Below are positions 1,061 through 57,672 of a stretch of DNA of 64,000 bases, one piece after another; positions within the stretch are counted from its first letter, which is position 1, and every line of letters starts with the position of its first letter. Made by a program: the position numbers and the translations under genes. The notes under the pieces are model-generated. The model did not search any database and was not told the origin of the DNA. It was given only the letters and a program-made list of their open reading frames with translations. Origin of the DNA: Rudanella lutea DSM 19387 (GTDB lineage: Bacteria; Bacteroidota; Bacteroidia; Cytophagales; Spirosomataceae); assembly GCF_000383955.1 (NCBI RefSeq), contig NZ_KB913013.1, forward strand, positions 3,305,694 through 3,369,693, written 5' to 3'.

Positions 1061-1112
1061 GGGAAAAGTGAAAGAGCGAAAGAGCGTTTCACTCTTTCAC
1101 TCTTTCGCTCAT
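1061..1112. repeat. Inverted repeat A (GTGAAAGAGCGAAAGAG arms)
   Basis: An imperfect hairpin with 8-bp periodic arms: a purine-rich left arm at 1066-1086 and a pyrimidine-rich right arm at 1087-1110. The right arm overlaps the end of the EVE-McrB gene and encodes its last residues (SERVKE). The 13-mer GTGAAAGAGCGAA also occurs in inverted repeat D at 46768-46780. It lies between two co-directional genes. Confidence 0.75.
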
Positions 1113-3161
1113 TGGTTTCTGGTATATAAAAATGAATGCTTCTTTCGGGACTTGCCCAAACTCACCGGCGGTCAGGTGCGGATTTATTTCGTAGGTCACT
1201 ACCTCGTCCATCTCATTGGGGTTTTCGCCGAACAACTCGCGCGCCAGGGCCGGGGTGTACTGCTTTTTTACCCAGATGAGCCGCTGCTCAGGCGTTTTAC
1301 CCCAGGCTTTATGGTCGCCCAGCACAAGCTGAATCTTGTGCCAGTCGCCGTAAAAATACTCCTGCAACAACGGGATAATAGTATCCCGGAACACAATCGC
1401 TAGGGTATCGAGCGAGTCGACACCCATCAGGTACGCATGACCAATCTGATGGTCGCGGTCGTAAAGGTATTCGATGCGCTCGTTGAGGGTTCGCAGCAGG
1501 GCCGCCAAATCGACTCCGTCGACCGTACCCAGCAGGGCAGGGTTGGGCAACACCTCCCGGAAGCTAAACCGTCGGCGTAAGGCTAGGTCGAGTAGGGCAA
1601 TAGAGCGGTCGGCGGTGTTCATCGACCCCACAATGTACAGGTTGGCAGGCACCCCAAAGCGCTCCTGCGAGTAGGGCAGGGTGAGCCAGAGTTCCTGTTC
1701 ATGCCCAAGTCGTTTGCCCTCTTCCAGCAGGGTAATCAGCTCGCCCAGTACCCCGGCAATATTGGCCCGGTTTATCTCGTCGATGAGCAACACGTGCGGA
1801 GGTGCCTCCCGGAATCGCCGTTGCCGGTTGGCGGGGGTATCGTTCAGGCAGTCGGCCATGGTTGCGTAGCCCGCCAGTTGCAGAGCGGTGAGGCAGGCCC
1901 GGTGAAAAATACCTTTACGGACTCGGTAGGCTACCTGTCCCTGAAGCGTTTCGGGCCGAATCCCCTCCACAAACTCTTCGTAGCTGTACGAGGCATGAAA
2001 CGTAACAAAATCGGCCCGTTGCCGGGTGGCGGTGGCGGTATGCAGCCAGTTGTGCTGTAACGAAAAGGTTTTCCCCGTACCCGGTGGGCCGTACAGAATA
2101 AGGTTACGCGGCTGATTGAGGGGCTGAACGGGCTCGGTCGGCTCCTCGGTTCCGTAGCCGACGGTGGTTTCTTCAACCCGATTGTCGAGTTCGGGCAGGC
2201 CGGCCAGTTGCCGGATCGCGTTGAACTGCTCGGGCGTCAGCTCCCAATTGGTCATGCCCTGCGGATTTTCAAAAATCCGCAACGGAGCCAGCAGCGGATG
2301 CTCACGTAACTGCGCCCGGCCAACGGGGTTGTCGAGCAGTTTTTCGTCGAACAGATACTCAACGGCCAGTCGCTCACCCGTAAACCGGTCGGGCGAGCGT
2401 ACGTACGCCGATGGCGACTCGGCCGCGCGAACCGTTGGGTCAGACGTGACGGTGCCAAACGCGTAGATACCGCTCTGCGCCCCCGATACCAGCACAGCAA
2501 ACCGGTCGCCCGAGCGCATCAGGGCTTTGTTGACCTGACTCACCCGAAACGTGCCGCCCAGCTCGCCTGCTATTTCAGCGGCCATATCGTAATATTTGGG
2601 GTACGCATGAAACACCCAATACCGAACGGGACCGGCGTTTTGCCCGTACCGAAACGTTTGGTTCAGCAGGCTTTCCCGAACGGCATCGTCCTCGGCCATG
2701 TCGTACAGGGCCGGGTTGTGCACGGCTTTGTGCGGCCCCCGGCGGGCGGTTTCGGTTAGTTCGACGAGGCAGTCCTGCCAGCAACGTTGCAGGGCAATAT
2801 TTTGCAGGAGATGCCCGTCCGACTCACCCAGCACGGCATAGGCATACGGCGAATTGTCGGAAAGCGGGATAAACGAAACCTCTTCAGCTTCGATCCGGTC
2901 CTGACATTCTCGTTTAATAAGCAGCCGAAACTCAGCCTCGCTGTTGCGGGCGCGCAGCAGGCGCAGAGCCGGAAAAAAATTGATGTTGGCCGTCAGGTCA
3001 TTGTCGCGCCCAACCACAAACGCGAGCCGGGCATCGCCATTGGGCAGGTTGACCACATCGATCAGTTCTTTCAACAGGCCGAAAAACCGTCGGATAGCTT
3101 CGGGCTGCCCAATGGCCCGCATGCGGTCGGTCAGAAGTTGCTGGTGGTCTTCGGCAATCAT
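1089..3161 (-). CDS. EVE-domain / McrB-like AAA+ NTPase (solo)
   Basis: A 690-aa protein with an N-terminal region of unknown fold (about 1-170), an EVE-like domain (about 178-312) and a C-terminal McrB-type AAA+ NTPase. EVE-like signs are YWVF at 181-184, [10 protein letters not shown] at 218-227 and [12 protein letters not shown] at 231-242. The NTPase has Walker A GPPGTGKT at 358-365, Walker B LLIDE at 458-462 and the McrB-type signature MNTADRS at 514-520. EVE domains of the PUA superfamily bind modified bases, and McrB partners translocate DNA or RNA for the McrC nuclease. No McrC lies on either side: a dehydrogenase is downstream and a divergent lipoprotein upstream. A role in modified-nucleic-acid restriction is inferred. 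The last codons lie within inverted repeat A. Confidence 0.85.
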
Positions 3162-3335
3162 GCAAGGAGTAGACTCAGGATGGCTAAAATACGACTTTTT
3201 CGCCGGAATCTATTGATTGCACCCGCCGAAGGCTGTAGATTTAGGCTGATAAAACCAACGCCGGTTTGTCGGTCAGCCCCTTCGTTTAAGGGCTTTTCTG
3301 CACAGGTCGGCCAACTACCCGAACTGCTCGTTGTG

Positions 3336-4190
3336 ATGACCTGCCGCCTTTCTCTACTAACGATTTTTTGCCTTTTGCTGTGGGTTGGATGTACAGACAA
3401 GCCCAACCCGGCACCGGTTAGGTGCGCTGTAGTGAGTGTGGCCGATCAGCTCGACGCGGGTGGCCGCCTGACCGATCAGATGCTGCGGTCGTTTACCTAC
3501 ACGGCTGGGCAACTTACTCAACTCGCCGAACGCAATACCGACCGCCAACTGGCTCTGACGGTTGAATACGGGGCCAACGGGCAGTTGCTGCGGGCATCGA
3601 CGGGTAGTTTTACGATTGCGTTTGATTACACGTCGGGGCAGGCGTTTCCCAGTCGCGCTACGTCTATTCAGGGAGGGAATCCGCAGGCGGTTTATGACCT
3701 GGCCTACTCGGCCAATAACAAACTGGCGCGGGTGTTTGAAAATCGGCAGGTGTTGGCCCCCAACTCGCTTGTACGCTCGCGGGAGTACCTGTTTACCTAC
3801 GATGATAACGGTAATATGATCACCGAAAAACTGAAATCAACGCTGAACGATAGATCAACCGTTGAGCAGGAAACCGATTTTACTTATGGCACTGGTATGG
3901 GGCCCATGGCCAACTTTTCCCAGCCCGTGCTGCTCACGGTGGCTTCGCTGAGCCAATACGTCGAAACCATGCCAGGGCAATTCTGGCAGCAGCGGATCTT
4001 GAAAGAGTACAAGACTTACAATGCCCGAAACGGCGTGCGGAGTGCCGTGCGCGAAACCGCCACGTTTACGCCCGCCCTCGACGGTGATAACCGCCTGATT
4101 GGGCAGGAGCAAAATACGGTAAGCACGACCAGCAGTGGTCAGACGTTTACGCGTCGAAACAAACTGACCTTCGCGTATCAATGTCAGTAG
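3336..4190 (+). CDS. Putative lipoprotein with YD-repeat-like segments
   Basis: A 284-aa protein of unknown function. The reading frame is open upstream to 2787, but that part lies opposite the EVE-McrB gene; the ATG at 3336 starts a good export signal. That signal is a hydrophobic stretch followed by WVGC, with Cys19 as the likely lipidated residue, although Trp at -3 is unusual for a lipobox. The body contains YDLAYSANNKLARV and YLFTYDDNGN, which resemble the YD/RHS-type beta repeats seen in DUF4595-like Bacteroidota lipoproteins. It converges on the FAD/Fe-S gene with only 6 bp between the stop codons. Confidence 0.7.
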   Translation: MTCRLSLLTIFCLLLWVGCTDKPNPAPVRCAVVSVADQLDAGGRLTDQMLRSFTYTAGQLTQLAERNTDRQLALTVEYGANGQLLRASTGSFTIAFDYTSGQAFPSRATSIQGGNPQAVYDLAYSANNKLARVFENRQVLAPNSLVRSREYLFTYDDNGNMITEKLKSTLNDRSTVEQETDFTYGTGMGPMANFSQPVLLTVASLSQYVETMPGQFWQQRILKEYKTYNARNGVRSAVRETATFTPALDGDNRLIGQEQNTVSTTSSGQTFTRRNKLTFAYQCQ

Positions 4191-4196
4191 GCAGAT

Positions 4197-7281: not shown

Positions 7282-7289
7282 CTATTTCC

Positions 7290-7400
7290 GTAGAAACGCA
7301 ACCTGTTGCGTCTCATATCCGGTAGGTTGTATCCGTCAGTTTTCTTCAGGCATGGCAAAAGAATGGCTGACGCATGTGAGACGCAAAATTTTGCGTCTCT
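7290..7400. repeat. Paired GAGACGCA/TGCGTCTC palindromic repeat, copy 1
   Basis: Two short palindromes bracket a spacer of about 65 bp. The first, at 7293-7315, is degenerate (AAACGCAacctgTTGCGTCTC). The second, at 7378-7399, is a perfect 22-bp palindrome (GAGACGCAAAA and its complement). The block shares CCGG after the first palindrome and GCTGACGC before the second with the block at 63262-63346, so the two are copies of one composite element. It lies between the ahcY stop codon and its terminator. Confidence 0.8.
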
Positions 7401-7407
7401 GCGGGTC

Positions 7408-14190: not shown

Positions 14191-14304
14191 TAACAGATAA
14201 TGTATGATGAGTAATGGATAATGTGTAATGATGGCTTTGTTGATGCAAAATTGTTTTTTACAATTCATCACTCATCACTCATCACTCATCACTCATCATT
14301 ATCC
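14191..14304. repeat. Inverted repeat B with TCATCAC heptamer array
   Basis: The right arm holds four perfect copies plus one near-copy of the heptamer TCATCAC (14265-14299). The left arm (14191-14234) is a degenerate complement built from ATGATGAGTAATG-like words. Between them AATTGT/ACAATT can form a small extra stem. The block spans a convergent junction and touches the EamA gene's stop codon. Confidence 0.75.
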
Positions 14305-29038: not shown

Positions 29039-29039
29039 T

Positions 29040-37350: not shown

Positions 37351-38262
37351 ATGAAGCAGCAACTCAACTTAGCCCAGATCCGGGAATACGGTAACGTCGA
37401 ATTTTTGGCCCGCCAGATGGTCGAAGGCTTCATCACGGGGTTGCACAAATCGCCCTTTCACGGCTTTTCGGTTGAGTTTGCCGAGCACCGGCTCTACAAT
37501 ACCGGCGAAACCACCCGGCATATCGACTGGAAAGTGTTTGGCAAAACCGAAAAGCTGTTTGTAAAACGGTACGAGGAAGAAACCAACCTGCGCTGCCACT
37601 TACTGATCGATACGTCGTCGTCGATGTATTACCCCGAAAAAAACTTCGGTAAACTCACCTTCAGCGTGATGGCCGCCGGGTGTTTGGCCTACCTGCTCCA
37701 ACGCCAGAAAGACGCCGTGAGCCTGACCACCTTTGCCGATGCAATTGATGTACAGACGCCCGTAAAATCGACGCCCTCACACGTGCACAAGCTGTTTGGG
37801 CACCTGAGCGACCTGATGCAGCAGCCCAAAACCACCCGGAAAACATCGGCCGCCGAAGTGATTCATCAGATTGCCGAGAAAATCAACAAGCGTTCGCTGG
37901 TGGTTATTTTCAGTGATATGTTTGAGAATGCCGACAAGGCCGATGCGCTGTTCTCGGCCCTTCAGCATTTGCGGCATAACCTGCACGAGGTGTTGCTTTT
38001 CCACGTGACCGACAAGAAAACCGAAGAGGATTTTGCCTTTGATGAGCGCCCCTACGAGTTTATTGACCTCGAAACGGGTGAGCGGGTAAAGCTGCAACCC
38101 GGTCAGATTCGGGATTCGTATCAAGAGGCCGTGCGGGCGTATTTTCAGGAACTGAAGCTGCGTTGCGGGCAGTACAAAATTGACTTTATCGAGGCCGATA
38201 TTGCCCGGGGATTTGATCAGATTCTGAGCTCGTACTTAGTGAAACGGACGAAGATGAAATAA
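37351..38262 (+). CDS. DUF58 / vWA-like protein (MoxR-associated)
   Basis: A 303-aa cytoplasmic protein of the DUF58 family, which has a von Willebrand factor A-like fold with a MIDAS-type motif (DTSSSM). The hallmark segment TGETTRHIDWKVFGKT is present. DUF58 proteins usually work with a MoxR AAA+ ATPase in envelope or stress functions, but no moxR gene is adjacent here. The ATG at 37351 is chosen because the upstream in-frame codons cover the terminator stem. The stop codon abuts inverted repeat C. Confidence 0.9.
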   Translation: MKQQLNLAQIREYGNVEFLARQMVEGFITGLHKSPFHGFSVEFAEHRLYNTGETTRHIDWKVFGKTEKLFVKRYEEETNLRCHLLIDTSSSMYYPEKNFGKLTFSVMAAGCLAYLLQRQKDAVSLTTFADAIDVQTPVKSTPSHVHKLFGHLSDLMQQPKTTRKTSAAEVIHQIAEKINKRSLVVIFSDMFENADKADALFSALQHLRHNLHEVLLFHVTDKKTEEDFAFDERPYEFIDLETGERVKLQPGQIRDSYQEAVRAYFQELKLRCGQYKIDFIEADIARGFDQILSSYLVKRTKMK

Positions 38263-38344
38263 AGGGAAAAAGGAGAAGGGAGGAAAGGGAGAAGGGGCTG
38301 TTGCATAGTTCCCTTTCTCCTTTCCTCCCTTCTCCTTTTCTCCT
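38261..38344. repeat. Inverted repeat C (polypurine/polypyrimidine arms)
   Basis: Arms of about 34 bp made only of A and G on the left (38261-38297) and C and T on the right (38311-38344) are almost perfectly complementary, with a 13-nt loop. The block fills the gap between two convergent genes and could be a bidirectional terminator or form triplex-type DNA. Confidence 0.8.
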
Positions 38345-38351
38345 CTATTAC

Positions 38352-39827
38352 CTATTTCCCTTTCGCGGCTGGCTTCGCTTGTTTGTTCACAGTAGCCGGT
38401 GCGGCTTTGGTGGCCAGCTGACGCTTGTAAAAATCAAGGAAGTCGCCCGCCTGCTCAGCGGGTATGCCCCGCCCGATAATCGTGCGGCTTTTGTCGAGCA
38501 CGTAGACCTGTGGCGTGGTGAACACATCGTACCGGTGCCGGAAGTCGGTGCGGAACGTGAAGTCGTAGCCGTGAATCCAGTTTTGGAGCTTAAACTCGTT
38601 GATAAACTTTTTCCAGCTTTCGGGGCTGTTGCTTACGGGTACCGCCAGTACATCAATGCCTTTGCCTTTGTTGGCGTCGGTGTATTTTTTCAGTAGAGGA
38701 GCCGCTGTGCGACAATGACCGCACTCGGGATCGTAGAAAAACACAATCAGGTAATCGCTCTTTAGGGACGCAAAGTTGATGGGGCGCCGGAGGGTGTCGC
38801 TCACCGACAGGGTCGGAAACGGTTTGCCAATCAGCAGCGGCTTCAGCGTGTTTACTTTTTCGCGTACGTTGGCCAGGGCAGTCGAGTCTGACATCGGCAT
38901 CACACCCGAGAGGTAGTATTTCTCGGCCATGTGAATAAACACCCCATCAGTACCCAGCACGGTGGGCCGCTCATACTGGCTCGTGATCCAGTAAATGGTG
39001 TACAGGTGCATATCACTGCCGGGCTTGGTTTTCCGAATCAGGAAATCGGCCTCTTTCGTGATCGAGTCGGTTTGCTGCACCGTCAGCTCTTTCATGTACC
39101 GTTCGAGCTTACGCTGGTAAACAGGGGTGAGCAAAAACCGGTCGTCAGCGAGGTCGAACCCGTCCCAGTAGTGGGCTTTGTAATAATTGAATGTCCAGAG
39201 CGAGTCGGGGCGGCCGTTGGCGGCTTTAGGGGGCGCGGGTACATTCGGTTCGGCCGAGGCTTCGAGCAGCTTGGTGGCAAACAGGCCTTTGTTGTTCTGC
39301 ACAAAATCGAGCCGAATCTGATTCGCTTTTTGGGCCAGCTCGTTCTGTTGCTTCTGAAACAGAGCGGCCGACACGGCATCGTTCCGTAGTTTTTTCTGCA
39401 CCTCAATGGCCTGTACTTCCTCGTACAAGGTGGCCAACGCCTGTTGGTACTCGTAAAACTTCTCATTTTCGCGGGAGCCCGTCACCTTCATCGACCGGAT
39501 GAAATTGGTGGTATCGGTCGCGAATGAGAACGTCTGCTGATCGTCGAGGATAAACTCCATGTATCGCTGTTTGGGCGTCAAGACCAGATATAAGCCCTGC
39601 GGCAGCGCCTTATCGCCTTCGAAAACGAATTGCCCCTGAGCGTTTATTTTGGCGGTATCTTTCGGGATATATTGTGTGCCCGAACGGTACCAATGGGCCA
39701 GTACAACCGAAGTGTCGCGCAGACCTTTGATCTGCCCGCTGATCCGGTACGGTTTGTTGGTGGTTTGAGCCAGCAGGGCGGTTGCCGACAGAACGGCGAG
39801 CAAGGCCATGCAGAACAGTTTTTTCAT
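38352..39827 (-). CDS. TlpA-like thioredoxin-fold protein with DUF4369/DUF5106 domains
   Basis: A 491-aa exported disulfide or redox protein. A signal peptide ending ALLAQ precedes a DUF4369 beta domain (about 25-120; ISGQIKGLRDTSVVLAHWY), a central helical DUF5106-like region (about 125-330) and a C-terminal thioredoxin/AhpC-TSA domain. The active site CGHC lies in FFYDPECGHCRTAAPLL. Such proteins are abundant in Bacteroidota and reduce or shuffle periplasmic disulfides; the partner is unknown. The C-terminus is a Lys/Ala-rich tail. A -7 box lies upstream. Confidence 0.9.
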   Translation of the reverse strand: MKKLFCMALLAVLSATALLAQTTNKPYRISGQIKGLRDTSVVLAHWYRSGTQYIPKDTAKINAQGQFVFEGDKALPQGLYLVLTPKQRYMEFILDDQQTFSFATDTTNFIRSMKVTGSRENEKFYEYQQALATLYEEVQAIEVQKKLRNDAVSAALFQKQQNELAQKANQIRLDFVQNNKGLFATKLLEASAEPNVPAPPKAANGRPDSLWTFNYYKAHYWDGFDLADDRFLLTPVYQRKLERYMKELTVQQTDSITKEADFLIRKTKPGSDMHLYTIYWITSQYERPTVLGTDGVFIHMAEKYYLSGVMPMSDSTALANVREKVNTLKPLLIGKPFPTLSVSDTLRRPINFASLKSDYLIVFFYDPECGHCRTAAPLLKKYTDANKGKGIDVLAVPVSNSPESWKKFINEFKLQNWIHGYDFTFRTDFRHRYDVFTTPQVYVLDKSRTIIGRGIPAEQAGDFLDFYKRQLATKAAPATVNKQAKPAAKGK

Positions 39828-45275: not shown

Positions 45276-46763
45276 TTACCGGTTCATTCGTTTTCGCAGC
45301 CCGGCAACGGTCTGATTGAGGTCGGGTGAGAGTTTCAGAACGAGTATCAGGCCACCAAACACAAGCGTAATCAGGGCCGACCGCAGTGCTACGTCGGTCA
45401 GTACCCGGACGGTACCTGTGCCGTAAGGGTACTGTACCGCCAGCCACCAGACCAGCGCGCCCACCCCTAAAACGGCCCCGTTGCGCCAGCTGAATGGCTG
45501 CATACCAAATTTCACCCAGACGAACACCGTTCGTACAAAATTAAACAAGGCTGTTACAAAAGCGGCACCCATGGCGGCTCCGTTGATACCGTACTTCGGA
45601 ATAAGCCACGCATTGACCCCAATGGTGATAAAAATAAGCCCGATGAAAAAGGCCGAGTCGTAGGCATAATAGCGGGAGGTGGCCAGAATGGTGCCGTTGA
45701 GGCCCGTAGCCATATCAATGAGTTTGCCCAGACCGATCCAGAGCACTACGTAATAGCCAGCTTCATAGCCTGCCGGGAGCCACTGAAACACGTTGGGCAG
45801 GTTGGCCGCGATCCCGACAAACACCAGACATCCCGCAATGAGCTGGTTAAGGCAACTGCGCTCATACACGTCGGCAATATGGGCAGGGTCGTTGCGTTTC
45901 CAGGCATCGGCAATGATGGTGCCCGCCACTTTGTAAAGAGCCAGTGCAGGCAGGCCAATCACGGTACCGAAGTACGACGCAATGGTGTAGATACCCGTAT
46001 CGTCGAGCCCGGAGGCATCGTTGATCATGACCTTGTCGATGGTCAGAATAATGTTGGACGACAAAGCGGTCAGCAACGATAGCCCTGCGTACCGCATAAT
46101 AGACCGGCGTAGGTCGGGACGTACCGTGAGCGAATTGAACCGGAGATAGAGGCCGTGTTTTCGGGCCACCCGGATGCCCATAAGCACCGCTGGTGCCAGA
46201 AAAGCCCCCATCCAGCACACCATAAATTGCCCGAAGGTGAGCCAATCCAAACCATAAGCTACAATCGAAGCCAGCACCAGCAACCGGCTGATGAAGTGCT
46301 GGTACAGCGTGCCCGGAACGGTGTCGTACAGCAGCTTGGCGTAGTTGTCGAATACATTGAAGGCGACCGTAAACAGGGTGAGCGGGATGAGCCAGTAATA
46401 ATAGTCGACAAACAGGGCTGATTTTTCGATGTTTCGTTCAACCACCCACGGGCGCAGGGCCGTGAGCAGGGCCGAGCAGAGCAGTACGCCCACAAACGTA
46501 GTTAGCACGCTTAGCAAGAGGTAGCCGTTGTGGTGCCGCTCCGGGTCACGGAAGTACGGGAAATACCGGCCACCGGCCCCGTTGAGACCAAGATTGGCAA
46601 ACTGCGCCAGCACAACCGAATAGGATAGCAACAGCCCAATCAGGCCTACCTGATCGGTACTCAGCAGCTTGGGAAACAGTAGCCCCTGTGTAATAAAACC
46701 AACGCCAATTCCAGCGTACGAAAACACCGAACTGGCAATGGTCTGGCGTTTGATGATGCCCAT
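45276..46763 (-). CDS. Polysaccharide flippase (Wzx/MVF-like)
   Basis: A 495-aa integral membrane protein with about 14 hydrophobic helices, of the MATE/Wzx-like oligosaccharide flippase type that moves lipid-linked repeat units across the inner membrane. The ATG at 46763 gives the usual MGIIKRQTIASSVFSYAGIG start. An in-frame extension to 46826 would be encoded by inverted repeat D and overlap the pseI end, so it is rejected. The C-terminus (SPDLNQTVAGLRKRMNR) is cytoplasmic. It fits the export step of a Wzy-type glycan pathway, although no wzy is seen in the window. Confidence 0.9.
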   Translation of the reverse strand: MGIIKRQTIASSVFSYAGIGVGFITQGLLFPKLLSTDQVGLIGLLLSYSVVLAQFANLGLNGAGGRYFPYFRDPERHHNGYLLLSVLTTFVGVLLCSALLTALRPWVVERNIEKSALFVDYYYWLIPLTLFTVAFNVFDNYAKLLYDTVPGTLYQHFISRLLVLASIVAYGLDWLTFGQFMVCWMGAFLAPAVLMGIRVARKHGLYLRFNSLTVRPDLRRSIMRYAGLSLLTALSSNIILTIDKVMINDASGLDDTGIYTIASYFGTVIGLPALALYKVAGTIIADAWKRNDPAHIADVYERSCLNQLIAGCLVFVGIAANLPNVFQWLPAGYEAGYYVVLWIGLGKLIDMATGLNGTILATSRYYAYDSAFFIGLIFITIGVNAWLIPKYGINGAAMGAAFVTALFNFVRTVFVWVKFGMQPFSWRNGAVLGVGALVWWLAVQYPYGTGTVRVLTDVALRSALITLVFGGLILVLKLSPDLNQTVAGLRKRMNR

Positions 46764-46766
46764 CTT

Positions 46767-46852
46767 AGTGAAAGAGCGAACGAGTGAATGAGTGAAAAGG
46801 GAGTTGATCGGTGACCACTCATTCACTCATTCACTCTGTCGCTTTTCAAAAG
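46767..46852. repeat. Inverted repeat D (GAGTGAATGAGTGAA arms)
   Basis: The left arm (46767-46800) and the right arm (46815-46852, CACTCATT octamers) pair over about 26 bp. The right arm lies inside the pseI 3' end and encodes its C-terminus (KSDRVNE). It shares the 13-mer GTGAAAGAGCGAA with inverted repeat A, 46 kb away. Confidence 0.8.
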
Positions 46853-47896: not shown

Positions 47897-47910
47897 AATA
47901 GGCAATCTCG

Positions 47911-49639: not shown

Positions 49640-49651
49640 CTCAATGTCAGT

Positions 49652-50617
49652 TTATAATGTTTGAAAAAACTCTCTGAGTCGTTGGCCGGATAGTCCGTCG
49701 AGGTAATGCCGTTGTCGTTCGACACTTTCGTCAAAACCGTTGCGGTTTAAAAGAGGAAATAGCCTTGATGGTTTTAAGGGTAATTCCAGAACCCCCAAAG
49801 CTAACCCCTCCTGAACAAAGAAATGTGCTAATCGCTTTTGGTTGTCTGCGGTTAAAATACCGATAAAAGGACGGCCAACAGAAGCTACTTCGTATGCAAT
49901 AGTGCTGCAGGAGACGATGGCTAATCGACAATGGTCTATTTCATGAGCCATTTGAGCAACAGACAGACTCTGCAATACGGTGAGCCGGTCTTGCGGAAAG
50001 TTTGAAAATGTTGCAACATGTGGGTTGGCGCTTCCTAATACAACTCGCAAAGAACACTTGGGGTAATGCTTAATAAGCCACTCCGTAAGGGTGTGGGATA
50101 TGTTCTGGATGTCAGCCCCGCCCAGATTTATCAGTATATCGTTTGCGGATGTATGAAGCCGGGCAGCTTTGAATAATGGATTCACCAATGCATATCGAGG
50201 GCCAAGTAGAAACTGGGTGTACGGCTCTGCTTCGTATTCTGTAGCAGGGATGCCCGCTGTGTGATTCAAAATTACGTCCGCGACCTGGTGCCCACGCATT
50301 AGGTCGTCAATAAAGACAAGTTTGTGGACCTTACCGCGCAATACTTTTTGAAAAGCCTCATCAAAATGATACCCATCCAGCACCAAAATATCTTCGGCCT
50401 GAGTATGCGGTATTAGCTCGTCGATATGCTGAGTATCTAAGGATAGCACGGGAAACCCATGCCCCAATAGTAACGCATTGACTGCCGGTGTGGGCTGGCA
50501 GATGGCAAACCGACAATTAAACGCATCCCCAAGTATAATAGCCAACGCCAAACTGCGCATGAGATGCCCCATCCCAATCTGGGTGTTTCCGTCGGCACGA
50601 AATAGAATTGAGCGCAT
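49652..50617 (-). CDS. pseG: UDP-2,4-diacetamido-trideoxy-altropyranose hydrolase
   Basis: A 321-aa GT-B-like hydrolase that removes UDP from the pseudaminic acid precursor before condensation by PseI. The N-terminal signature FRADGNTQIGMGHLMRSLALA-type motif carries the general-base region, and later segments VFIDDLMRGHQVADVILNH, ILINLGGADIQN and EIDHCRLAIVSCSTIAYEVA are PseG-like. Its ATG overlaps the pseF stop codon by one base (TAATG), a translational-coupling arrangement. Confidence 0.93.
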   Translation of the reverse strand: MRSILFRADGNTQIGMGHLMRSLALAIILGDAFNCRFAICQPTPAVNALLLGHGFPVLSLDTQHIDELIPHTQAEDILVLDGYHFDEAFQKVLRGKVHKLVFIDDLMRGHQVADVILNHTAGIPATEYEAEPYTQFLLGPRYALVNPLFKAARLHTSANDILINLGGADIQNISHTLTEWLIKHYPKCSLRVVLGSANPHVATFSNFPQDRLTVLQSLSVAQMAHEIDHCRLAIVSCSTIAYEVASVGRPFIGILTADNQKRLAHFFVQEGLALGVLELPLKPSRLFPLLNRNGFDESVERQRHYLDGLSGQRLREFFQTL

Positions 50618-51327
50618 TACTCCTCAATTTTAGATTGCTGCTGATTCAGCAATAGGTATTTAAATTCGGCAATCTTCCAGTCTTCCTCCGAATCAATGTC
50701 GTGGGCCTGCATCTCACCAATCTCAACACCTCCTGCCGATAAACCAGTCAGTTTCCGATCAGCTAAAAGTTGCTTCGTATCAAACCAATAGAATTGGCCC
50801 GCATCATGATAAGCCACCGCCAGATCCTGAGAACGTTTCAAAAACGCTGCCGGATCTGCCCATTCGATTAAACCTTCTTTGTTCAGAAAAAACGCTCGTT
50901 GTATCGGGAAATGAAACCGTTGAAGCGGGTAAATAATAGCGACACCTTTTTCAATGAGCGCATCGTGCGTTTTCTGTAAGATATCAACTGTGATAAAGGG
51001 AGATGTTGGATACAAACAACAGACGTGATTGAAGGTCTTGCCCTGCGCCCGGTATGCATCGAGCACTTCCAGAATCACGTCGACGGTGGTAGCGTAGTCA
51101 TCGGCGTTTTCGGCACTGCGCATAAACGGGACGACGGCTCCATGCTGCCGGGCCACCTCGGCAATTTCGGCATCGTCGGTCGACACCATCACCTCGTCGA
51201 ACAGCCTCGATTGCAGGGCCGCTTCGATAACGTAGGCAATGATGGGTTTGCCCAAAAACGGTCGGATGTTTTTGCGCGGAATCCGTTTGCTGCCGCCCCG
51301 GGCTGTGATAATGGCAACGTTATTCAT
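50617..51327 (-). CDS. pseF: Pseudaminic acid cytidylyltransferase
   Basis: A 236-aa enzyme that activates pseudaminic acid with CTP to CMP-Pse, the donor for glycosylation. The nucleotide-binding signature ARGGSKRIPRKN is at 9-20, followed by LYPTSPF and the PseF-type PLQRFHFPIQRAFFLN and AYHDAGQFYWF segments. The ATG at 51327 is clear; the longer frame to 51546 runs through palindromic repeats. A TATCTTTG box lies only 5 bp before the ATG. It is the first gene of the nine-gene operon; pseB and pseC are not in the window. Confidence 0.95.
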   Translation of the reverse strand: MNNVAIITARGGSKRIPRKNIRPFLGKPIIAYVIEAALQSRLFDEVMVSTDDAEIAEVARQHGAVVPFMRSAENADDYATTVDVILEVLDAYRAQGKTFNHVCCLYPTSPFITVDILQKTHDALIEKGVAIIYPLQRFHFPIQRAFFLNKEGLIEWADPAAFLKRSQDLAVAYHDAGQFYWFDTKQLLADRKLTGLSAGGVEIGEMQAHDIDSEEDWKIAEFKYLLLNQQQSKIEE

Positions 51328-51332
51328 GCGGG

Positions 51333-51340
51333 CAAAGATA
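51333..51340 (-). promoter_or_regulatory. -7 box TATCTTTG adjacent to the pseF start
   Basis: A perfect TAnnTTTG on the minus strand is separated from the pseF ATG by five bases (cccgc). Transcription from it would begin at or next to the start codon, giving a leaderless message. The first AGATGWCATCT palindrome lies just upstream. Confidence 0.5.
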
Positions 51341-51343
51341 ACC

Positions 51344-51433
51344 CCAGATGACATCTTGTTGGGAAAGATGTCATCTGGGTAGAAGGTGGCTTGTAAAGAG
51401 ATGTCATCTTTCCTAAACAAGATGACATCTCTT
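51344..51433. repeat. Two tandem hairpins with a four-copy AGATGWCATCT core
   Basis: Hairpin 1: CCAGATGACATCTT (51344-51357) and AAGATGTCATCTGG (51365-51378), a 14-bp perfect stem with a 7-nt loop. Hairpin 2: AAGAGATGTCATCTT (51396-51410) and AAGATGACATCTCTT (51419-51433), a 15-bp perfect stem with an 8-nt loop. Each arm contains the near-palindrome AGATG(A/T)CATCT. The block occupies the divergent region between pseF and the membrane protein gene. Confidence 0.85.
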
Positions 51434-51449
51434 CTCGGCAGAGTTTCGC

Positions 51450-51457
51450 CAACTTTG
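51450..51457 (+). promoter_or_regulatory. -7-like box CAACTTTG adjacent to the 51462 start
   Basis: CAACTTTG differs from TAnnTTTG in the first base and sits four bases before the ATG, mirroring the pseF arrangement on the other strand. Confidence 0.3.
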
Positions 51458-51461
51458 CGGC

Positions 51462-53186
51462 ATGTTTGGCTATCAACCGTTTCGCTGGCATCAGGAACGT
51501 TGGCCGGTGCTGGTGGGTGTCCTGATATTGCTGGCTTCGTATGCACCGTACTGGTGGCTTGGGCAGGATGCCTATTTCACCATTCATGATTTTCTGGACG
51601 ATAGCTCATACCAGTTTGGGCCACTGGTGCAATCGGGGCAGGCGTTTCGTTTTGGGGCCAATGCCATTGTGCCAACCATCATGAACGGGCTGCCCCGTTC
51701 GGCAATGCATTCGGGGCTGTACGTGTCGGTATGGCTCTTTGCGCTGTTGCCCCCATTCTGGGCTATTCTGGTCAATTTTCTGGTCGTGCACAGTATCGGG
51801 TTGGTGAGTATGTACGTGCTTCAGCGGCAGTACGTTCTGAACCGCTCCGGCGAGCAGTGGCTGGCAATCGGGGTGGCTCTGGTGTTTGCCCTTATTCCGA
51901 CGTACACCAACTACGGGTTGTCGGTAATGGGGCAGCCACTGCTTCTGTTGGCGTTTCTGCAACTTTTCTACCGTCGGCCGGGCGTTGCGGGCTGGCTTAT
52001 CATTCTGGGTTTTCCATTTTATTCGTTTCTGGTCCGGTCGGGGCTGTATGCACTGGTTGGGCTGGCGTTGCTTGGCTTGGTTCAATGGGGGCAAAGCCGT
52101 CGGTTCAATAGCCCGTACTGGCTGGGTCTGGTTCTGTTGGCGGTTCTCTACGGACTCGTCGATTTTCCGATGATTCGGGCGTACCTGACCGGGCAGTTTG
52201 TGTCGCACCGCAGCGAGTACAACCAAGCGGCTCTGGTGTCGGCCAAATTGGGCAACGGCCTGATTCATGCCCGGCTGCTGTTTGAGTATGGGCAGTATCA
52301 TGCAGGCACGTTTGCTACCTGGCTCATTGCGTTTTTGTGGCTGGCCCGGTTCATAACAGGGCGCTGGCGCGGACTGCCGGTATGGCTCATGGTGGCCATT
52401 GGGTCTATTTGTCTGCTGCATGGCCTGTACCCGTGGCTTCTGAGCCAGGCGGGGACTAACAAACGAATCCTGACCATCTTTCAGCTCGACCGGTTTTATT
52501 TTTTGTTGCCGTTTCTGTGGACGTTGTTGCTGGGGGTACTCCTGGCCGAGTGGGCGCAGTTGTTGGGCGGGTGGAGACGTAGTTTGCTGATCGGGCTGAT
52601 AGGCGGGCAGCTCTACCTGACGCTGACTCACAATGCGGAGTGGCTTACCAATGCCCGTGTGCTGGTGGGTATGCCCCGGCCGGCCCGTTCGCCTTCGTTT
52701 CGGGCTTTTTACGCCCCTGATCTGTTCGCGCGTATCCGGCAGGCATTGCCGCAACCTATGAGTGATTACCGGGTCGTGAGTATCGGTATGCACCCAATCG
52801 TCGCTCAGCTAAACGGATTTTATACGCTCGATAGTTATCAGAACAATTATCCACTGCCCTACAAACATCGGTTTCGGCAATTGATGGCCGACGAATGGGC
52901 CAAGCCGACAGCCTGGGCTATCCGACCGTATTTCAACGCCTACGGAAATCGCTGCTACGTGTTCCCGGCCGAACTCCGTATGAATGCCCTGATTGGCAAA
53001 ACCGATAAACGGATTGTCAATAATCTGGCATTCAACAATACGGCTTTTCGAGCGATGGGCGGCCGGTACATTCTTTCGGCCGTATCCATAAAAAATGCCG
53101 CCAGTTTGGGCTGGCGGCAAGTCGGTATATTCAACGATTCGGATAGCTACTGGCGCGTGTGGGTGTACGAGGTACCCCCTGCTTAA
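51462..53186 (+). CDS. Large polytopic membrane protein (DUF6044/YkoS-like, tentative)
   Basis: A 574-aa inner-membrane protein with roughly eleven hydrophobic helices spread over residues 15-400 and a soluble C-terminal domain (about 410-574). The early loop DAYFTIHDFLDDSSYQFGPL resembles the first extracytoplasmic loop of DUF6044/YkoS-type proteins and other GT-C-like glycosyltransferases, where an acidic residue after helix 1 is catalytic. This points to envelope-glycan work, in keeping with the divergent pse operon, but the assignment is weak. Its stop codon overlaps that of the convergent fadJ-like gene (shared TTAA). Confidence 0.65.
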   Translation: MFGYQPFRWHQERWPVLVGVLILLASYAPYWWLGQDAYFTIHDFLDDSSYQFGPLVQSGQAFRFGANAIVPTIMNGLPRSAMHSGLYVSVWLFALLPPFWAILVNFLVVHSIGLVSMYVLQRQYVLNRSGEQWLAIGVALVFALIPTYTNYGLSVMGQPLLLLAFLQLFYRRPGVAGWLIILGFPFYSFLVRSGLYALVGLALLGLVQWGQSRRFNSPYWLGLVLLAVLYGLVDFPMIRAYLTGQFVSHRSEYNQAALVSAKLGNGLIHARLLFEYGQYHAGTFATWLIAFLWLARFITGRWRGLPVWLMVAIGSICLLHGLYPWLLSQAGTNKRILTIFQLDRFYFLLPFLWTLLLGVLLAEWAQLLGGWRRSLLIGLIGGQLYLTLTHNAEWLTNARVLVGMPRPARSPSFRAFYAPDLFARIRQALPQPMSDYRVVSIGMHPIVAQLNGFYTLDSYQNNYPLPYKHRFRQLMADEWAKPTAWAIRPYFNAYGNRCYVFPAELRMNALIGKTDKRIVNNLAFNNTAFRAMGGRYILSAVSIKNAASLGWRQVGIFNDSDSYWRVWVYEVPPA

Positions 53187-55384
53187 CCCACCGCCGGAGC
53201 TGGTTTGGCCGCTTGCGCAAACCCTTCGCCACGGGCGGACATAGCCCGCAGCGTATCGGTGGGCCGGAATCGCTCGCCGTAGGTGTCGGCCAGTCGGTCG
53301 GCGGTTTCGACAAACGTTTTTACGCCCACAAAATCGACAAACGACAGGGCGCCCCCCGTGTAAGCCGGAAATCCCCACGCCAGAATAGAGCCCAGGTCGG
53401 CATCGAGCTTTGTCAGCACCACGCCCTCTTCAAAACACCGAACGGCTTCGATGGCCTGCCGGTACAACAGGCGGGTTTTCACTTCGTTGATGGTTGGTTG
53501 CGTATCTGATACCGGGAAAATCTTGGCCAGGCCGGGCCAAAGAGCTTTCGAACCTCCTTCGGGATACTCATAGAAGCCTGCTTTGGCTTTTTTGCCCAGT
53601 CGGCCCAGTTCTACAAACTGTTTGGCCACCTGATAGCTTGTGTCGGTTTCGCTCAAAGCCCCGTCTTTGATACCCTGCCCCGAAATTTTGTAGACCAGAT
53701 CGAGCGCAACCTCATCGGTTACGGCTAACGGTCCAACGGGCATACCGGCATCTTTGCCGCCATTTTCGATCAGAATGGGCGACACCCCATCTTTCAACAA
53801 TTCCATGCCTTCGGCAGAGTACGTGCCGAAGCAGCGCGAGGTGTAAAAGCCCCGGCTATCGTTCACGACAATGGGCGTTTTGCGGATTTTGCGGGTGTAG
53901 TCAATTGCTACGGCCAGGGCATAGTCCGATGTTTGCGCACCCATAATAATTTCGACCAGCATCATCTTGTCGACGGGTGAGAAGAAGTGAATGCCGATGA
54001 AGTTTTCGGGTTTGGCAGCGGCTTCGGCCAGGCTCGAAATGGGCAAGGTCGAGGTATTTGAGCCAAATACGCCCGGCCCGGCGGGGTTGTCCTGCGCCAG
54101 CATGGGCTCGGCCTCGCGGGTCACCTGCGCTTTGAGTTCGCGATTTTCAAAAACGGCTTCAATAATCAGGTCGCACCCCTGCATATCGACATAATCGGCC
54201 GTGGGCTTAATTCGGCTCAGAATACCGTCGACCTTCAGCGGGTCTACTTTGCCGCGTTCCACCCCTTTTTTGAGTAGCCCGCGAGAATACTCTTTTCCTT
54301 TTTCGGCGGCTTCGAGCGATACATCTTTCAGGACCACCTCAATACCCGCCTGCGCCGATACGTAAGCAATGCCCGCGCCCATCATACCCGCGCCCAGAAT
54401 CCCCACTTTCCGAACGTCGGTTTTCGGAATTGTTTTGGGGCGACTGGCACCCTTGTTGGCCTCGTTCATGCCCAAAAACATCGTTCCGATCAGGTTCTTG
54501 GCTACTTTGGAGGTGGCTACTTTTACAAAATGCCGTGCTTCAATTACCAGCGCCCGGTCGATGTTTACCTGAAGCCCCTCGTACACGCAGGCCATAATTT
54601 CGAGCGGAGCGGGGTAGTTGCCACGGGTTTTGTCCATCAGCATGGCCGTGCCCGCCGTGAAAATCTGCGCACCTACGGGACTTTGCACGTTGCCACCGGG
54701 AACCTTGAAATTGTCGCGAGCTACAATTTTGCCTGTCTTTTTATCAATTTGATCCCAGGGCTTTACCGGGTTTGGGTTGGCGGCAATGTACGCGCGGGCC
54801 ATCTCCATCATCGCGTCTGGGGTAGGGGCAATGTCGTCGATCAGGCCTTGCGCTTTAGCTTCCTGAACACCCAGTTTTTTGCCTTCGGTGATGAGCATCA
54901 GGGCAGCCTGCATCCCGATCATACGTGGGAGCCGTTGCGTACCGCCTGCACCCGGTAGCAGGCCAATGGTTACCTCCACCAGGCCAATCTGCGTCTTTGG
55001 ATTGTCCAGAGCCACCCGGTAGTGTGTAGCCAGGCAGATTTCATACCCACCCCCCAGGGCTGTGCCGTTGATGGCGGCCACCACGGGCTTACCGCACACT
55101 TCCATTTGCCGGAAAATCCGGTTCAGCTCGGCTGATACCTTCAGCATTTCGGCAGGTTCTTTATCGTTGTTCCGAAGAATCATCTTCAGATCGGCCCCGG
55201 CTACAAATTCGGGTTTGGCCGAAGTGACGATAATTCCTTTGACGGCCTCGTCGGCATAGGCCTGTTGTAGGGCGGCTTCAAATTGGGGGATCGACTGGTC
55301 GTTGAGTACGTTCATGGGTGACGAACTCATGTTCCAGGTGATCAGAGCGACATCCCGGTCGACGGTGTATTGGATTTCGGGCAT
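53183..55384 (-). CDS. Enoyl-CoA hydratase / 3-hydroxyacyl-CoA dehydrogenase fusion (FadJ/FadB-like)
   Basis: A 733-aa bifunctional fatty-acid beta-oxidation enzyme. The N-terminal crotonase domain (about 1-190) has the oxyanion segment FVAGADLKM, the GGGYEICLATHYRVA region and GLVEVTIGLLPGAGGTQRLP, so both catalytic Glu residues are present. The NAD-binding domain begins at VGILGAGMMGAGIAY (about 330), and the 3HCDH C-terminal domains follow (FFSPVDKMMLVEII; DEVALDLVYKI; GWGFPAYTGG-like text). No thiolase or acyl-CoA dehydrogenase is adjacent. It is divergent from rplM, with inverted repeat E between them. Confidence 0.95.
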   Translation of the reverse strand: MPEIQYTVDRDVALITWNMSSSPMNVLNDQSIPQFEAALQQAYADEAVKGIIVTSAKPEFVAGADLKMILRNNDKEPAEMLKVSAELNRIFRQMEVCGKPVVAAINGTALGGGYEICLATHYRVALDNPKTQIGLVEVTIGLLPGAGGTQRLPRMIGMQAALMLITEGKKLGVQEAKAQGLIDDIAPTPDAMMEMARAYIAANPNPVKPWDQIDKKTGKIVARDNFKVPGGNVQSPVGAQIFTAGTAMLMDKTRGNYPAPLEIMACVYEGLQVNIDRALVIEARHFVKVATSKVAKNLIGTMFLGMNEANKGASRPKTIPKTDVRKVGILGAGMMGAGIAYVSAQAGIEVVLKDVSLEAAEKGKEYSRGLLKKGVERGKVDPLKVDGILSRIKPTADYVDMQGCDLIIEAVFENRELKAQVTREAEPMLAQDNPAGPGVFGSNTSTLPISSLAEAAAKPENFIGIHFFSPVDKMMLVEIIMGAQTSDYALAVAIDYTRKIRKTPIVVNDSRGFYTSRCFGTYSAEGMELLKDGVSPILIENGGKDAGMPVGPLAVTDEVALDLVYKISGQGIKDGALSETDTSYQVAKQFVELGRLGKKAKAGFYEYPEGGSKALWPGLAKIFPVSDTQPTINEVKTRLLYRQAIEAVRCFEEGVVLTKLDADLGSILAWGFPAYTGGALSFVDFVGVKTFVETADRLADTYGERFRPTDTLRAMSARGEGFAQAAKPAPAVG

Positions 55385-55425
55385 ATGGTTTTAGTTTTTG
55401 AAGAAAGAATAAAACAAAGATAGTA

Positions 55426-55524
55426 GAAGTGAGGAGGTAGGAGCGAGGAGTGAGGAGTTGCTGACGCACGAGTATTGCTTACGCGCCAGCAACTTCTCAC
55501 TCCTCGCTCCTACCTCCTCACTTC
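55426..55524. repeat. Inverted repeat E: near-perfect 38-bp arms
   Basis: Arms 55426-55463 and 55487-55524 are complementary at 37 of 38 positions, purine-rich on the left (GTGAGGAGGTAGGAGCGAGG words), with a 23-nt loop. It lies between the divergent fadJ-like gene and rplM, just upstream of the rplM promoter, so it cannot be a simple 3' terminator for either. Confidence 0.9.
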
Positions 55525-55546
55525 CTTCATTCCTTCTGCTTTCTAC

Positions 55547-55577
55547 TTGTTTTTCAGTCTACTATCATCTATATTTG
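55547..55577 (+). promoter_or_regulatory. Promoter of the rplM operon (TTG-N20-TATATTTG)
   Basis: TTG at 55547-55549 and TATATTTG at 55570-55577 are spaced by exactly 20 bp. The predicted leader of about 70 nt contains CCCG/CGGG and TGCG/CGCA mini-stems and a T-rich stretch. This could host ribosomal-protein feedback, as L13 leaders do in other phyla. Confidence 0.75.
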
Positions 55578-55651
55578 CACTCCCGTTTTTAGGCGGGGTG
55601 CGTCTTTTTTGGCGCAAATTCTTAGCAATCAACCAATTATCAATACAAACA

Positions 55652-56095
55652 GTGAATACACTCAGTTATAAGACCATCTCCGCCAATAGCGATACGGTGC
55701 AGAAGGACTGGGTTGTGATTGACGCTCAGGGACAAGTGTTGGGTCGGCTGGCCAGCAAAATTGCCTCTGTAATCCGCGGCAAACACAAAACCAACTTCAC
55801 GCCCCACGTTGACTGTGGCGACAATGTAATCGTCATCAACGCCGATAAGGTGCGCCTGACGGGTAAGAAACTAACCGACAAGGTTTACGTACGCCACACC
55901 GGCTACCCCGGTGGTCAGCGTTTCGCTACGCCCCGGTTATTGCTCGAGAAGCGCCCTGAGCGCCTTGTTGAAATGGCCGTTAAAGGTATGCTGCCTAAAA
56001 ACCGGCTCGGTCGGAAAATGTACGGCAACCTGCACGTTTATGCTGGCGAACAGCACCCGCATGCTGCACAGCAACCCAAAGAAATTCAACTCTAA
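55652..56095 (+). CDS. rplM: 50S ribosomal protein L13
   Basis: A large-subunit ribosomal protein of 147 aa from the GTG at 55652 ([20 protein letters not shown]). The frame is open further upstream, but that would run through inverted repeat E and the promoter. L13 signatures [48 protein letters not shown]-like text and [12 protein letters not shown] are present. It is followed by rpsI, the conserved L13-S9 pair. Confidence 0.97.
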
Positions 56096-56170
56096 ATAGC
56101 GGTCTCGGGCCATATAGCTGTACGCTGTGAAGCGTGTAGGGGTCAGGTCTGAGCGTCTAACATCTAAAAA

Positions 56171-56557
56171 ATGGACCGTATCAATGCCATTGGTCGCCGG
56201 AAAACCGCCGTATCGCGCGTGTATCTGTCGGCCGGTAACGGAAACATTCAGGTGAATGGAAAAGAGTACAAGCAGTACTTCCCATCTGAAATTCTGCAAA
56301 TCATTTTGAACCAGCCGTTTACGAGTGTCAACGGAATAGGCGCATACGACGTGAAAGTAAACGTTCGGGGCGGTGGAATCACCGGTCAGGCTGAAGCTAC
56401 GCGTATGGCTATCTCACGGGCACTGGTTGAACTGAATGCTGAGTTCCGCCCTGCTCTGAAGAAAGAGGGCTTCCTGACGCGTGACTCGCGTATGGTTGAA
56501 CGGAAGAAATACGGACGTGCCAAGGCCCGTCGGCGGTTCCAGTTCAGCAAGCGTTAA
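56171..56557 (+). CDS. rpsI: 30S ribosomal protein S9
   Basis: A small-subunit ribosomal protein of 128 aa. The S9 start AIGRRKTAVSRVYLSAGNG and the invariant basic tail YGRAKARRRFQFSKR, whose C-terminal Lys-Arg reaches the P-site tRNA, are intact. It is 75 bp after rplM and is followed by inverted repeat F, then rpsB. Confidence 0.98.
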   Translation: MDRINAIGRRKTAVSRVYLSAGNGNIQVNGKEYKQYFPSEILQIILNQPFTSVNGIGAYDVKVNVRGGGITGQAEATRMAISRALVELNAEFRPALKKEGFLTRDSRMVERKKYGRAKARRRFQFSKR

Positions 56558-56560
56558 TAG

Positions 56561-56656
56561 AGTTTACGGTTTTCTGTTTATCGTTTTCAGTTGGCTTGCG
56601 CCTATAAACCGCTTCGCATAACTGCAAACCGTAAACAATAAACTGAAAACTTTAAA
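56561..56656. repeat. Inverted repeat F (GTTTACGGTTTTCTG-type arms)
   Basis: Left arm 56561-56595 and right arm 56624-56656 are imperfect complements built from GTTTACGG, GTTTATCG and GTTTTCAG words. It lies between rpsI and rpsB and shares vocabulary with inverted repeat G one kilobase downstream. Confidence 0.7.
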
Positions 56657-56660
56657 AAAA

Positions 56661-56698
56661 TTCGTCCAGACCGTTCTTAGATGATGCCGACGAACGGT
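56661..56698 (+). promoter_or_regulatory. rpsB leader with two mutually exclusive stems
   Basis: TTCGTC (56661-56666) can pair with GACGAA (56689-56694), or ACCGTTC (56670-56676) with GAACGGT (56692-56698). The two share bases 56692-56694, so only one can form. It lies 40 bp before the rpsB start and may be an S2 autoregulatory site (inference). Confidence 0.4.
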
Positions 56699-56738
56699 GC
56701 TGCGTACACATTATCAAAACCATATTTTCAAAACGAAA

Positions 56739-57578
56739 ATGGCACAAGTTGAATATAAAGACCTCTTAGACGCTGGTGTGCACTTTGGCCACTTGACGCG
56801 TAAGTGGGACCCCCGGATGGCTCCGTATATCTTCATGGAGAAGAACGGTATCCACATTATTGACTTAAACAAAACACTCGCCAGCCTCGACGACGCTTGC
56901 AACGCCATCAAAGGTATTGTTCGCTCAGGCCGGAAAGTGATGTTTGTTGCTACCAAGAAGCAAGCTCAGGAGATCGTAACGGAAGAAGCGCGTCGTCTGA
57001 AAATGCCGTACGTAACCGACCGTTGGTTGGGTGGTATGCTCACGAACTTCGCTACCGTGCGTAAGTCGATGAAGAAGCTCCAGACACTGGACAAAATGTT
57101 GAAGGACGAAACAACGGCCAGCAACATTGCCAAGCGGGAGCGGCTGACGATGTCGCGTGACAAAGAAAAATTAGATCGTGTATTAGGTGGTATCGTAGAC
57201 CTGACCCGTCTGCCTGCCGCCCTGTTTATCGTGGACGTAAAGCGCGAGCACATTGCGGTGGCCGAAGCCAAGCGGCTGGGTATCCCTGTGTTTGCCATGT
57301 GCGATACGAACTCGAATCCTGATGAGGTTGATTTCCCGATTCCTGCAAACGACGACGCCTACAAGTCGATTGCTCTGATTACGCTTGCCATCGGTAAGGC
57401 CATCGAAGAAGGTCTGATGGAGCGGAAGCAGGATAAAGACGATCAGCGTCTGCAGGAAGAAGAAGAGGCAAAGCGTGCCAGCGATTCGCGCCAGGCCGCT
57501 GCCGAAGGTGCCGATGAGGCTCCGGCCGCCGAAGCTACAGCCCCTGTAGCCGAAGCTGCCGACGAGCAGCCAGAATAA
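56739..57578 (+). CDS. rpsB: 30S ribosomal protein S2
   Basis: A small-subunit ribosomal protein of 279 aa from the ATG at 56739 (MAQVEYKDLLDAGVHFGHLT), the conserved start; an in-frame codon 14 residues upstream is rejected. Core S2 segments WDPRMAPYIFMEKNGIHIID, FVATKKQAQEIV and RWLGGMLTNFATV are present. The C-terminus carries an Ala/Glu-rich tail (about 235-279) longer than in E. coli, as is common in Bacteroidota. It is followed by inverted repeat G, a hairpin and tsf. Confidence 0.98.
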   Translation: MAQVEYKDLLDAGVHFGHLTRKWDPRMAPYIFMEKNGIHIIDLNKTLASLDDACNAIKGIVRSGRKVMFVATKKQAQEIVTEEARRLKMPYVTDRWLGGMLTNFATVRKSMKKLQTLDKMLKDETTASNIAKRERLTMSRDKEKLDRVLGGIVDLTRLPAALFIVDVKREHIAVAEAKRLGIPVFAMCDTNSNPDEVDFPIPANDDAYKSIALITLAIGKAIEEGLMERKQDKDDQRLQEEEEAKRASDSRQAAAEGADEAPAAEATAPVAEAADEQPE

Positions 57579-57580
57579 TA

Positions 57581-57672
57581 CAGTTTTCAGTTTAGAGTTT
57601 TCCGTTTTCAGTTAACGCAAAGCGTCATGATCAGACGTTAGCCAACTGAAAACTGAAAACTGTAAACTAAAA
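57581..57672. repeat. Inverted repeat G (AACTGAAAACTG arms)
   Basis: Left arm 57581-57617 and right arm 57636-57672 consist of degenerate 7-bp repeats of AACTGAA and its complement and pair imperfectly over about 35 bp. It begins right after the rpsB stop codon. Confidence 0.75.

Follow-up and report, generated by a model that had tools for sequence, protein, structure and literature searches.

Hairpins with word-built arms persist at gene junctions of Rudanella lutea DSM 19387 while their sequence is replaced

The STRR repeats of heterocystous cyanobacteria are degenerate tandem heptamers, like the words that build the arms of a set of hairpins at gene junctions of Rudanella lutea DSM 19387, but STRRs are not known to form hairpins or to turn over at junctions. 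Seven of these hairpins, designated loci A to G, lie in a stretch of 64,000 nucleotides, which is referred to as the window (NCBI RefSeq contig NZ_KB913013.1; G000:C1:3305694-3369693, where G000 is the 6.55 Mb genome of R. lutea itself), and they are analysed here together with their counterparts elsewhere in this genome and in related genomes. The closest described system is the P6b stem of the tRNA-Leu(UAA) group I intron of Nostoc and its relatives, in which two classes of heptanucleotide motifs have repeatedly replaced each other in a manner that does not follow the phylogeny (PMC4476775). As described in that source, the P6b stem resembles the junction hairpins in its degenerate 7-nt words, in the appearance of the other class at the same place, and in a structure that is similar while the sequence is very different. 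However, P6b is one intron locus with two classes, whereas the hairpins analysed here occupy many junctions, are built from about ten word families with units of 7-9 bp, and show genome-wide dialects. Their site is also unlike that of P6b, as the window contains no tRNA. TAACTGA heptamers of Beggiatoaceae, Cyanobacteria and some Bacteroidetes are tandem, intergenic and patchily distributed, and lie by start or stop codons (PMC4679880). The heptamers of that account share with the junction hairpins the tandem intergenic arrangement adjoining start or stop codons, Bacteroidetes included, but they are direct repeats, mostly of one word and upstream of starts, whereas the words analysed here form inverted pairs and are many. 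REP elements are 20-40 bp long, have stems of 6-9 bp and GTAG or CGTC ends, and are associated with RAYT transposases (PMC3733652). According to this source they are likewise intergenic palindromes near gene 3' ends, with several families per genome; the hairpins analysed here are, in contrast, ~46-147 bp long with periodic arms of 17-67 nt, and three of the four Y1 genes of R. lutea are near none of them. Template switching is reported to create and repair RNA hairpins, with perfect stems from a single event and compensatory changes of several bases as predicted outcomes (PMC8794818); it is a mutational process rather than a repeat family and, as described there, does not predict dialects. 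A survey of inverted repeats reports that arms are better conserved than spacers (PMC13155455). No description of junction hairpins with ten word families, of genome dialects, or of Spirosoma hairpins of this kind was found in the open-licence PMC literature.

The original prediction, made from the letters of the window alone, held that the seven inverted repeats share one architecture but are built from different words, and proposed a genome-wide scan and a comparison of related strains as checks. Upon scanning of 464 kb of the R. lutea genome, 69 inverted repeats are detected at a score of at least 14, as compared with one in a single first-order shuffle. Upon scanning of 870 kb (854 kb of known bases), 145 are detected, as compared with 0, 1 and 1 in three shuffles. 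Inverted repeats thus far exceed shuffle counts. The arms are periodic at p<0.02 in 48 of the 145, where ~3 would be expected, and the best lag of these 48 is 7 in 19, 8 in 15, 14 in 11, 13 in two and 9 in one. The words include the heptamer families GTTTNCA, AATGNNN, GATGANN, AGGAGNN, AACANNN, GCAGTNN and GGAGAAGG, the octamer GAGYGANN, and 9-mers such as GGATTGAAC. An AACAGTG hairpin at G000:C1:3174651, with 67-nt arms, is the longest periodic one seen.

The periodic hairpins lie mainly at co-directional junctions (34 of 48, with five at convergent and five at divergent junctions, three within called frames and one at an edge), whereas the 97 non-periodic repeats comprise 35 co-directional, 46 convergent and seven divergent ones, nine within frames and none at an edge. 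Over the three junction classes, the two groups are distributed differently (p 3e-5). The 34 co-directional periodic hairpins stand just after stop codons: in 26 of them the distance to the upstream stop lies between -10 and +25 nt, and the median distances are 5 nt from this stop and 11 nt to the next called start, where genes are called as longest open frames and start positions are approximate. Among 80 named rpsB-region loci of 7-17 kb each, a periodic repeat of score at least 18 is present in 11, ten of them among the 20 nearest relatives (Spirosoma, Larkinella, Fibrella and other kin within the Cytophagales) and one among the remaining 60.

The sister genome G001 is aligned with that of R. 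lutea in collinear blocks of 84-93% identity (~10% divergence). When a loose set of 72 periodic hairpins of R. lutea is compared with it, 50 are anchored and 22 are not. An inverted repeat (score at least 12) is kept in G001 at 44 of the 50 anchored junctions, as compared with 0.8% of shuffled segments, and clean presence or absence is seen at six of the 50. Arm identity among the 44 falls into two groups, being less than 0.6 in 16 and at least 0.75 in 25. The flanks are at least 0.75 identical in 12 of the 16 pairs with unrelated arms. Six of these 12 hairpins are swapped for another periodic family (3533918, 3624536, 3640419, 3734251, 3814517 and 3843759), four become other palindromes (3486620, 3538341, 3605442 and 3659870), and two keep the family with a new sequence (3827670 and 3864893). 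The boundaries of exchange were read at 15 hand-chosen junctions; at 3624536 and 3843759 the stop codon and the A-run ahead of the start codon are the exact limits of the exchanged part, and at 3814517 the bases on both flanks are identical around the exchanged hairpin. Where the repeat is kept, the mean identity to G001 is 0.70 in arms, 0.64 in loops and 0.85 in flanks. Junctions retain a hairpin while its sequence is replaced in a saltatory manner, and the comparison of related strains reveals hairpins that appear, vanish or change words.

This pattern extends to a further genome, G002, at 77-80% identity. Of the 128 hairpins of R. lutea and G001 (orthologous pairs counted twice), 31 are anchored there, and 22 of the 31 junctions hold an inverted repeat (score at least 11), mostly of another family. 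The G002 orthologues of 3816845 and 3659870 are composite hairpins, in which word-built arms surround another palindromic element as apex. At the rpsI-rpsB spacer (locus F), 82 sequences were collected, of which 20 lack the downstream motif and six have spacers shorter than 25 nt; 46 of the 56 testable sequences fold better than shuffles (z <= -2, 60 shuffles each). The words of this spacer vary by species across the Cytophagales (GTTTATC, CAGTGNG, AATGNNN, TTGGCAATGGGC, AAGTTNAC, GTTATCAG and others). Within the genus, the hairpins at F and G keep a CAG core and vary at the other positions, as judged by eye.

The octamer family is spelled differently from genome to genome. When arrays are counted as overlapping 22-mers in a survey of 61 whole genomes, the ratio of GAGYGAAA to GAGYGAWT is 68:18 in R. 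lutea, 7:79 in G001, 3:40 in G002 and 0:22 in G003, and in other genera it is 0:84 (G010), 19:10 (G066), 26:7 (G006) and 7:42 (G041). The reversed-pattern control gives 0 everywhere except in G004 (4). Because 22-mers overlap, the Fisher value of 2e-22 overstates independence and locus counts are safer: GAGYGAAA-major loci number 11 of 19 in the R. lutea DNA examined, one of 13 in G001 and none of eight in G002. At orthologous junctions, octamer hairpins change dialect and loop while the family stays. The GAGYGAAA dialect of R. lutea is probably newer than the AT/TT dialect, because the two R. lutea loci with arms nearly unchanged in G001 (3451896 and 3815215) bear the latter.

The loops are mostly unique. 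Among 91 loops of at least 18 nt, 83 match nothing else in the examined DNA of the same genome, and one of the eight with matches only matches a second copy of its own locus. When the whole genome is searched with the octamer hairpin 3864893, 72 matches to the arms and none to the loop alone are obtained; two of the 72 cross the loop, at 69-71% identity. Octamer hairpins have neither a loop nor ends in common. The private loops and arm-only matches indicate that these hairpins are not copies of one element.

All seven inverted repeats of the window are present where they had been predicted or within ~10 bases. A strict scan (mismatch -2, score 14) detects only C, D, E and G, and a looser scan (mismatch -1) is needed for A, B and F. 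Locus A (1064..1109; best arms 1064-1104) is an octamer GAGYGAAA hairpin at the junction of two co-directional minus-strand genes and reaches into the reading frame 1089-3161 of an AAA protein at its 3' end. Locus B (14191..14304; best arms 14204-14299) has heptamer arms AATGNNN/GATGAGT and lies between convergent genes; its right arm consists of 4.9 exact TCATCAC units here and of far fewer in G001, where the left arm is longer. Locus C (38251..38356, which are also the best arms) is a purine/pyrimidine hairpin of GGAGAAGGG words between convergent genes for a DUF58 and a thioredoxin-like protein. Locus D (46762..46852; best arms 46767-46843) is an octamer GAGYGANN hairpin between a neuB-like gene and the next, co-directional minus-strand gene, and overlaps the 3' end of a reading frame. 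It is absent in G002, in which the spacer is 12-15 nt long and contains ATCGGTGAC; these nine bases are found in the loop of D, and six times in the R. lutea DNA examined. This one case suggests that the arms of D may have been laid down around an old spacer. Locus E (55426..55524, also the best arms), an AGGAGNN heptamer hairpin with the apex GTTGCTGACGC...GCG(C/T)CAGCAAC and 42-nt arms that are 95% complementary, lies upstream of rplM and separates the start of this gene from that of a divergent 3-hydroxyacyl-CoA dehydrogenase gene. Locus F (56561..56656; best arms 56563-56656) is a GTTTNCN heptamer hairpin at the co-directional rpsI-rpsB junction. Locus G (57579..57673; best arms 57584-57673) is a GTTTTCAG heptamer hairpin at the co-directional rpsB-tsf junction, with one extra 7-bp unit in G001. 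A conserved hairpin distinct from it comes next, at 57673-57705; this rpsB-tsf leader hairpin (AGCCCGTAG..CTATGGGCT) recurs beside the variable hairpin G in Cytophagales loci.

One architecture with several word families is supported for all seven loci. Periodic arms, which had been claimed for all of them, are found at A, B, D, E, F and G by arm-letter shuffling and not at C (p 0.61); the right arm of C has a 15-bp period in 2.2 copies (Tandem Repeats Finder), and its orthologue in G001 passes the periodicity test. The words belong to several families, but do not differ at every locus as had been claimed, since A and D share the octamer family and F and G a heptamer family. Locus E has many dispersed relatives in the genome, and the words of the loci are thus not isolated from the rest of it. 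The settings are convergent (B and C), co-directional (A, D, F and G) and divergent (E), as predicted. No Rfam family reaches the gathering score within the window. A further palindromic element with dispersed copies and GAGACGCAAA..TTGCGTCTC arms is present at 7288-7404 and 63259-63347 of the window, and its relatives stand in for word-built hairpins in G001 at 3538341 and 3659870. Two adjoining GATGACATCTC hairpins at a divergent junction (window 51343-51433) are nearly identical in G001.

The level at which the arms become complementary may be read from wobble pairs. The sense-strand ratio of G-T to A-C mismatches is 109:100 in the periodic co-directional hairpins of R. lutea and G001, 43:53 at junction F and 20:17 at junction G, so that no G-U bias is seen. 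It is 107:45 in repeats of these two genomes that resemble T-tract terminators (208:122 for such repeats in all sequence examined), and this differs from the periodic set (p 5e-4), although score limits and the handling of ends differed between the sets, which counts against the interpretation that follows. On the simplest reading of these ratios, complementarity would arise at the DNA level, without refinement by RNA folding. We tentatively favor the explanation, to which we give somewhat less than an even chance, that hairpin spacers are kept at junctions while their sequence is not, the arms being remade in the DNA itself through slippage, through template switching and through copying from one locus to another. 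In this view, arms would lengthen and shorten as whole words slip during replication, and would become complementary when one is copied from the other, by fold-back or by a template switch at a stalled fork. Words would travel between loci mainly as arm-length tracts copied between dispersed related arrays, and copying limited to such tracts would let dialects spread and leave each loop private. The hairpin may be held in place by selection for a spacer past the stop codon that folds or insulates. Some families, namely the E apex, the AATG element and the AGGATTAC element, may also spread as whole elements. The shared de novo mechanism of the original prediction is consistent with the unit changes in the arms of B and G, with the matching unit order in E and D, and with the old spacer in the loop of D. 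An extension of this mechanism to all hairpins is not supported, since at least two families act as ordinary mobile elements, the apex of E is nearly invariant, and homogeneous genome-wide dialects need some exchange between loci.

Several results weigh against rewriting of the arms at the DNA level. The flanks are poorly aligned in four of the 16 pairs with unrelated arms. Replacement also affects inverted repeats without periodic arms (21 of 79, as compared with 21 of 47 periodic ones) and is thus not special to word-built hairpins. Other co-directional repeats give a G-T to A-C ratio of 86:67. In hairpins that are kept alike, paired and one-side-breaking changes number 16:61 in periodic and 26:115 in other repeats; paired changes are thus no commoner in periodic hairpins in this compensatory-change test. 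Neither template switching nor arm conversion was observed as an event at any step, and several families plainly move as elements, as is apparent from clean insertions between R. lutea and G001 and from family E.

The last of these results also bears on a doubtful but substantial alternative, that MITE-like hairpin families with different words insert at junctions and are lost again, in which case a dialect would represent the youngest wave of one family. Clean insertions are of this type: the AGGATTACAGG element, ~140 bp long with a AGGATTACAGGATAAACAGGATT hairpin, terminal repeats and a 9-bp duplicated target, lies at G000:C1:3391777-3391919 and is absent in G001, and the AATG element has shared ends. 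Family E gives 23 pattern matches, comprising 16 AGGAG-armed copies with the same nearly invariant apex, in which the unit order is the same in both arms as judged by eye, two copies of the apex with other words, and five chance matches in coding DNA. A GCTGACGC-like motif (GCT[GT][AG]CGC) is present in 14 of 128 apices, where 1.3 would be expected, across several word families, and the absence of D in G002 is also consistent with mobility. The octamer, GTTTTCAG and AACAACG families showed neither shared ends nor a target duplication at the junctions compared. The private loops (83 of 91), the lack of a common loop or ends in octamer hairpins, the excess of hairpin-for-hairpin exchange (16 of 50 anchored) over clean presence or absence (6 of 50), and the switching of dialect and loop within a kept family argue against mobile elements. 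One dispersed element for all hairpins is rejected in view of the loops, private in the DNA examined, and the differing words, and alignment to one known transposable or repeat family, named in the original prediction as contrary evidence, did not occur. A shared apex for all is rejected, because the GCTGACGC-like motif is absent from most apices and its 14 matches include orthologous pairs.

It is unlikely, though conceivable, that a trans-acting system other than an RVT_1-type reverse transcriptase determines which word a genome uses and places it in matched inverted pairs after stops, such that a change of word would shift the dialect of dozens of hairpins while the junctions are kept. An enzyme, which had been offered as one possible hairpin maker, was not identified. 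A reverse transcriptase like those of telomerase, diversity-generating retroelements or retrons is rejected, as no RVT_1 match is present in G000-G003. The R. lutea genome contains four Y1_Tnp matches; no periodic hairpin is found around the Y1 transposase loci L009, L010 and L011, and L012 has one palindrome (p 0.015) with other words. The hairpins lack the REP dimensions of 20-40 bp with stems of 6-9 bp, and by eye no GTAG or CGTC tags are seen in the printed sequences. A REP/RAYT origin is not supported, because the Y1 loci are without these hairpins save for this one weak, otherwise-worded palindrome. Loss of SbcCD as the cause is also rejected, because G001 has SbcD and yet has hairpins too; matches to SbcD exceed the family cut-off in G001, G002, G003 and in 18 of 29 relatives searched. 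The sbcD match of R. lutea is partial (profile 151-249) and below the cut-off (L016:1226-2026, G000:C1:3061226 on), whereas the match in relatives is full, and a long frame beside it is a candidate sbcC.

The dialects, and word cores that are fixed while other positions vary, would also fit if a protein that binds DNA or RNA recognises the arms as arrays of its sites, so that a change in its preference would select a new dialect everywhere. This is improbable, however, because many unrelated word families stand side by side in one genome, and no candidate protein was found, although none was looked for. The location directly past stop codons and the folding of the rpsI-rpsB spacer (46 of 56) would suit intrinsic terminators or stabilisers of mRNA 3' ends, with stems that drift and are selected for RNA folding only. 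This explanation is quite improbable. T-tract terminators are not called inside D, E or F in a scan of window 45000-60000, and the one called at G starts at the last base of G and represents the separate hairpin. There is no G-U excess, convergent junctions hold fewer of the periodic hairpins than of other repeats, E separates two divergent gene starts, and drift yields neither tandem words nor genome-wide dialects. Terminators alone are thus insufficient, as the original prediction had argued. If slippage and template switching within the hairpin acted purely locally, junction by junction and without exchange between loci, they would explain single-arm changes in unit number, the ancestral spacer in the loop of D and the private loops. 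This is, however, the least probable account, because it is strained by dialects that dozens of loci of one genome have in common and that differ from those of the sister genome, and by exchanges in which the new word family is one that other places of the genome already have.

The position and shape of these hairpins persist while their sequence is replaced within ~10% divergence, so that two things usually taken together would come apart. Compensatory change in such stems is to be treated with caution, as it is no proof of RNA function. With the dialects, concerted evolution of non-coding hairpins that are dispersed over a genome can be counted from genome sequences alone. The pair of R. lutea and G001 provides a test bed for the origin of long perfect stems in bacteria.

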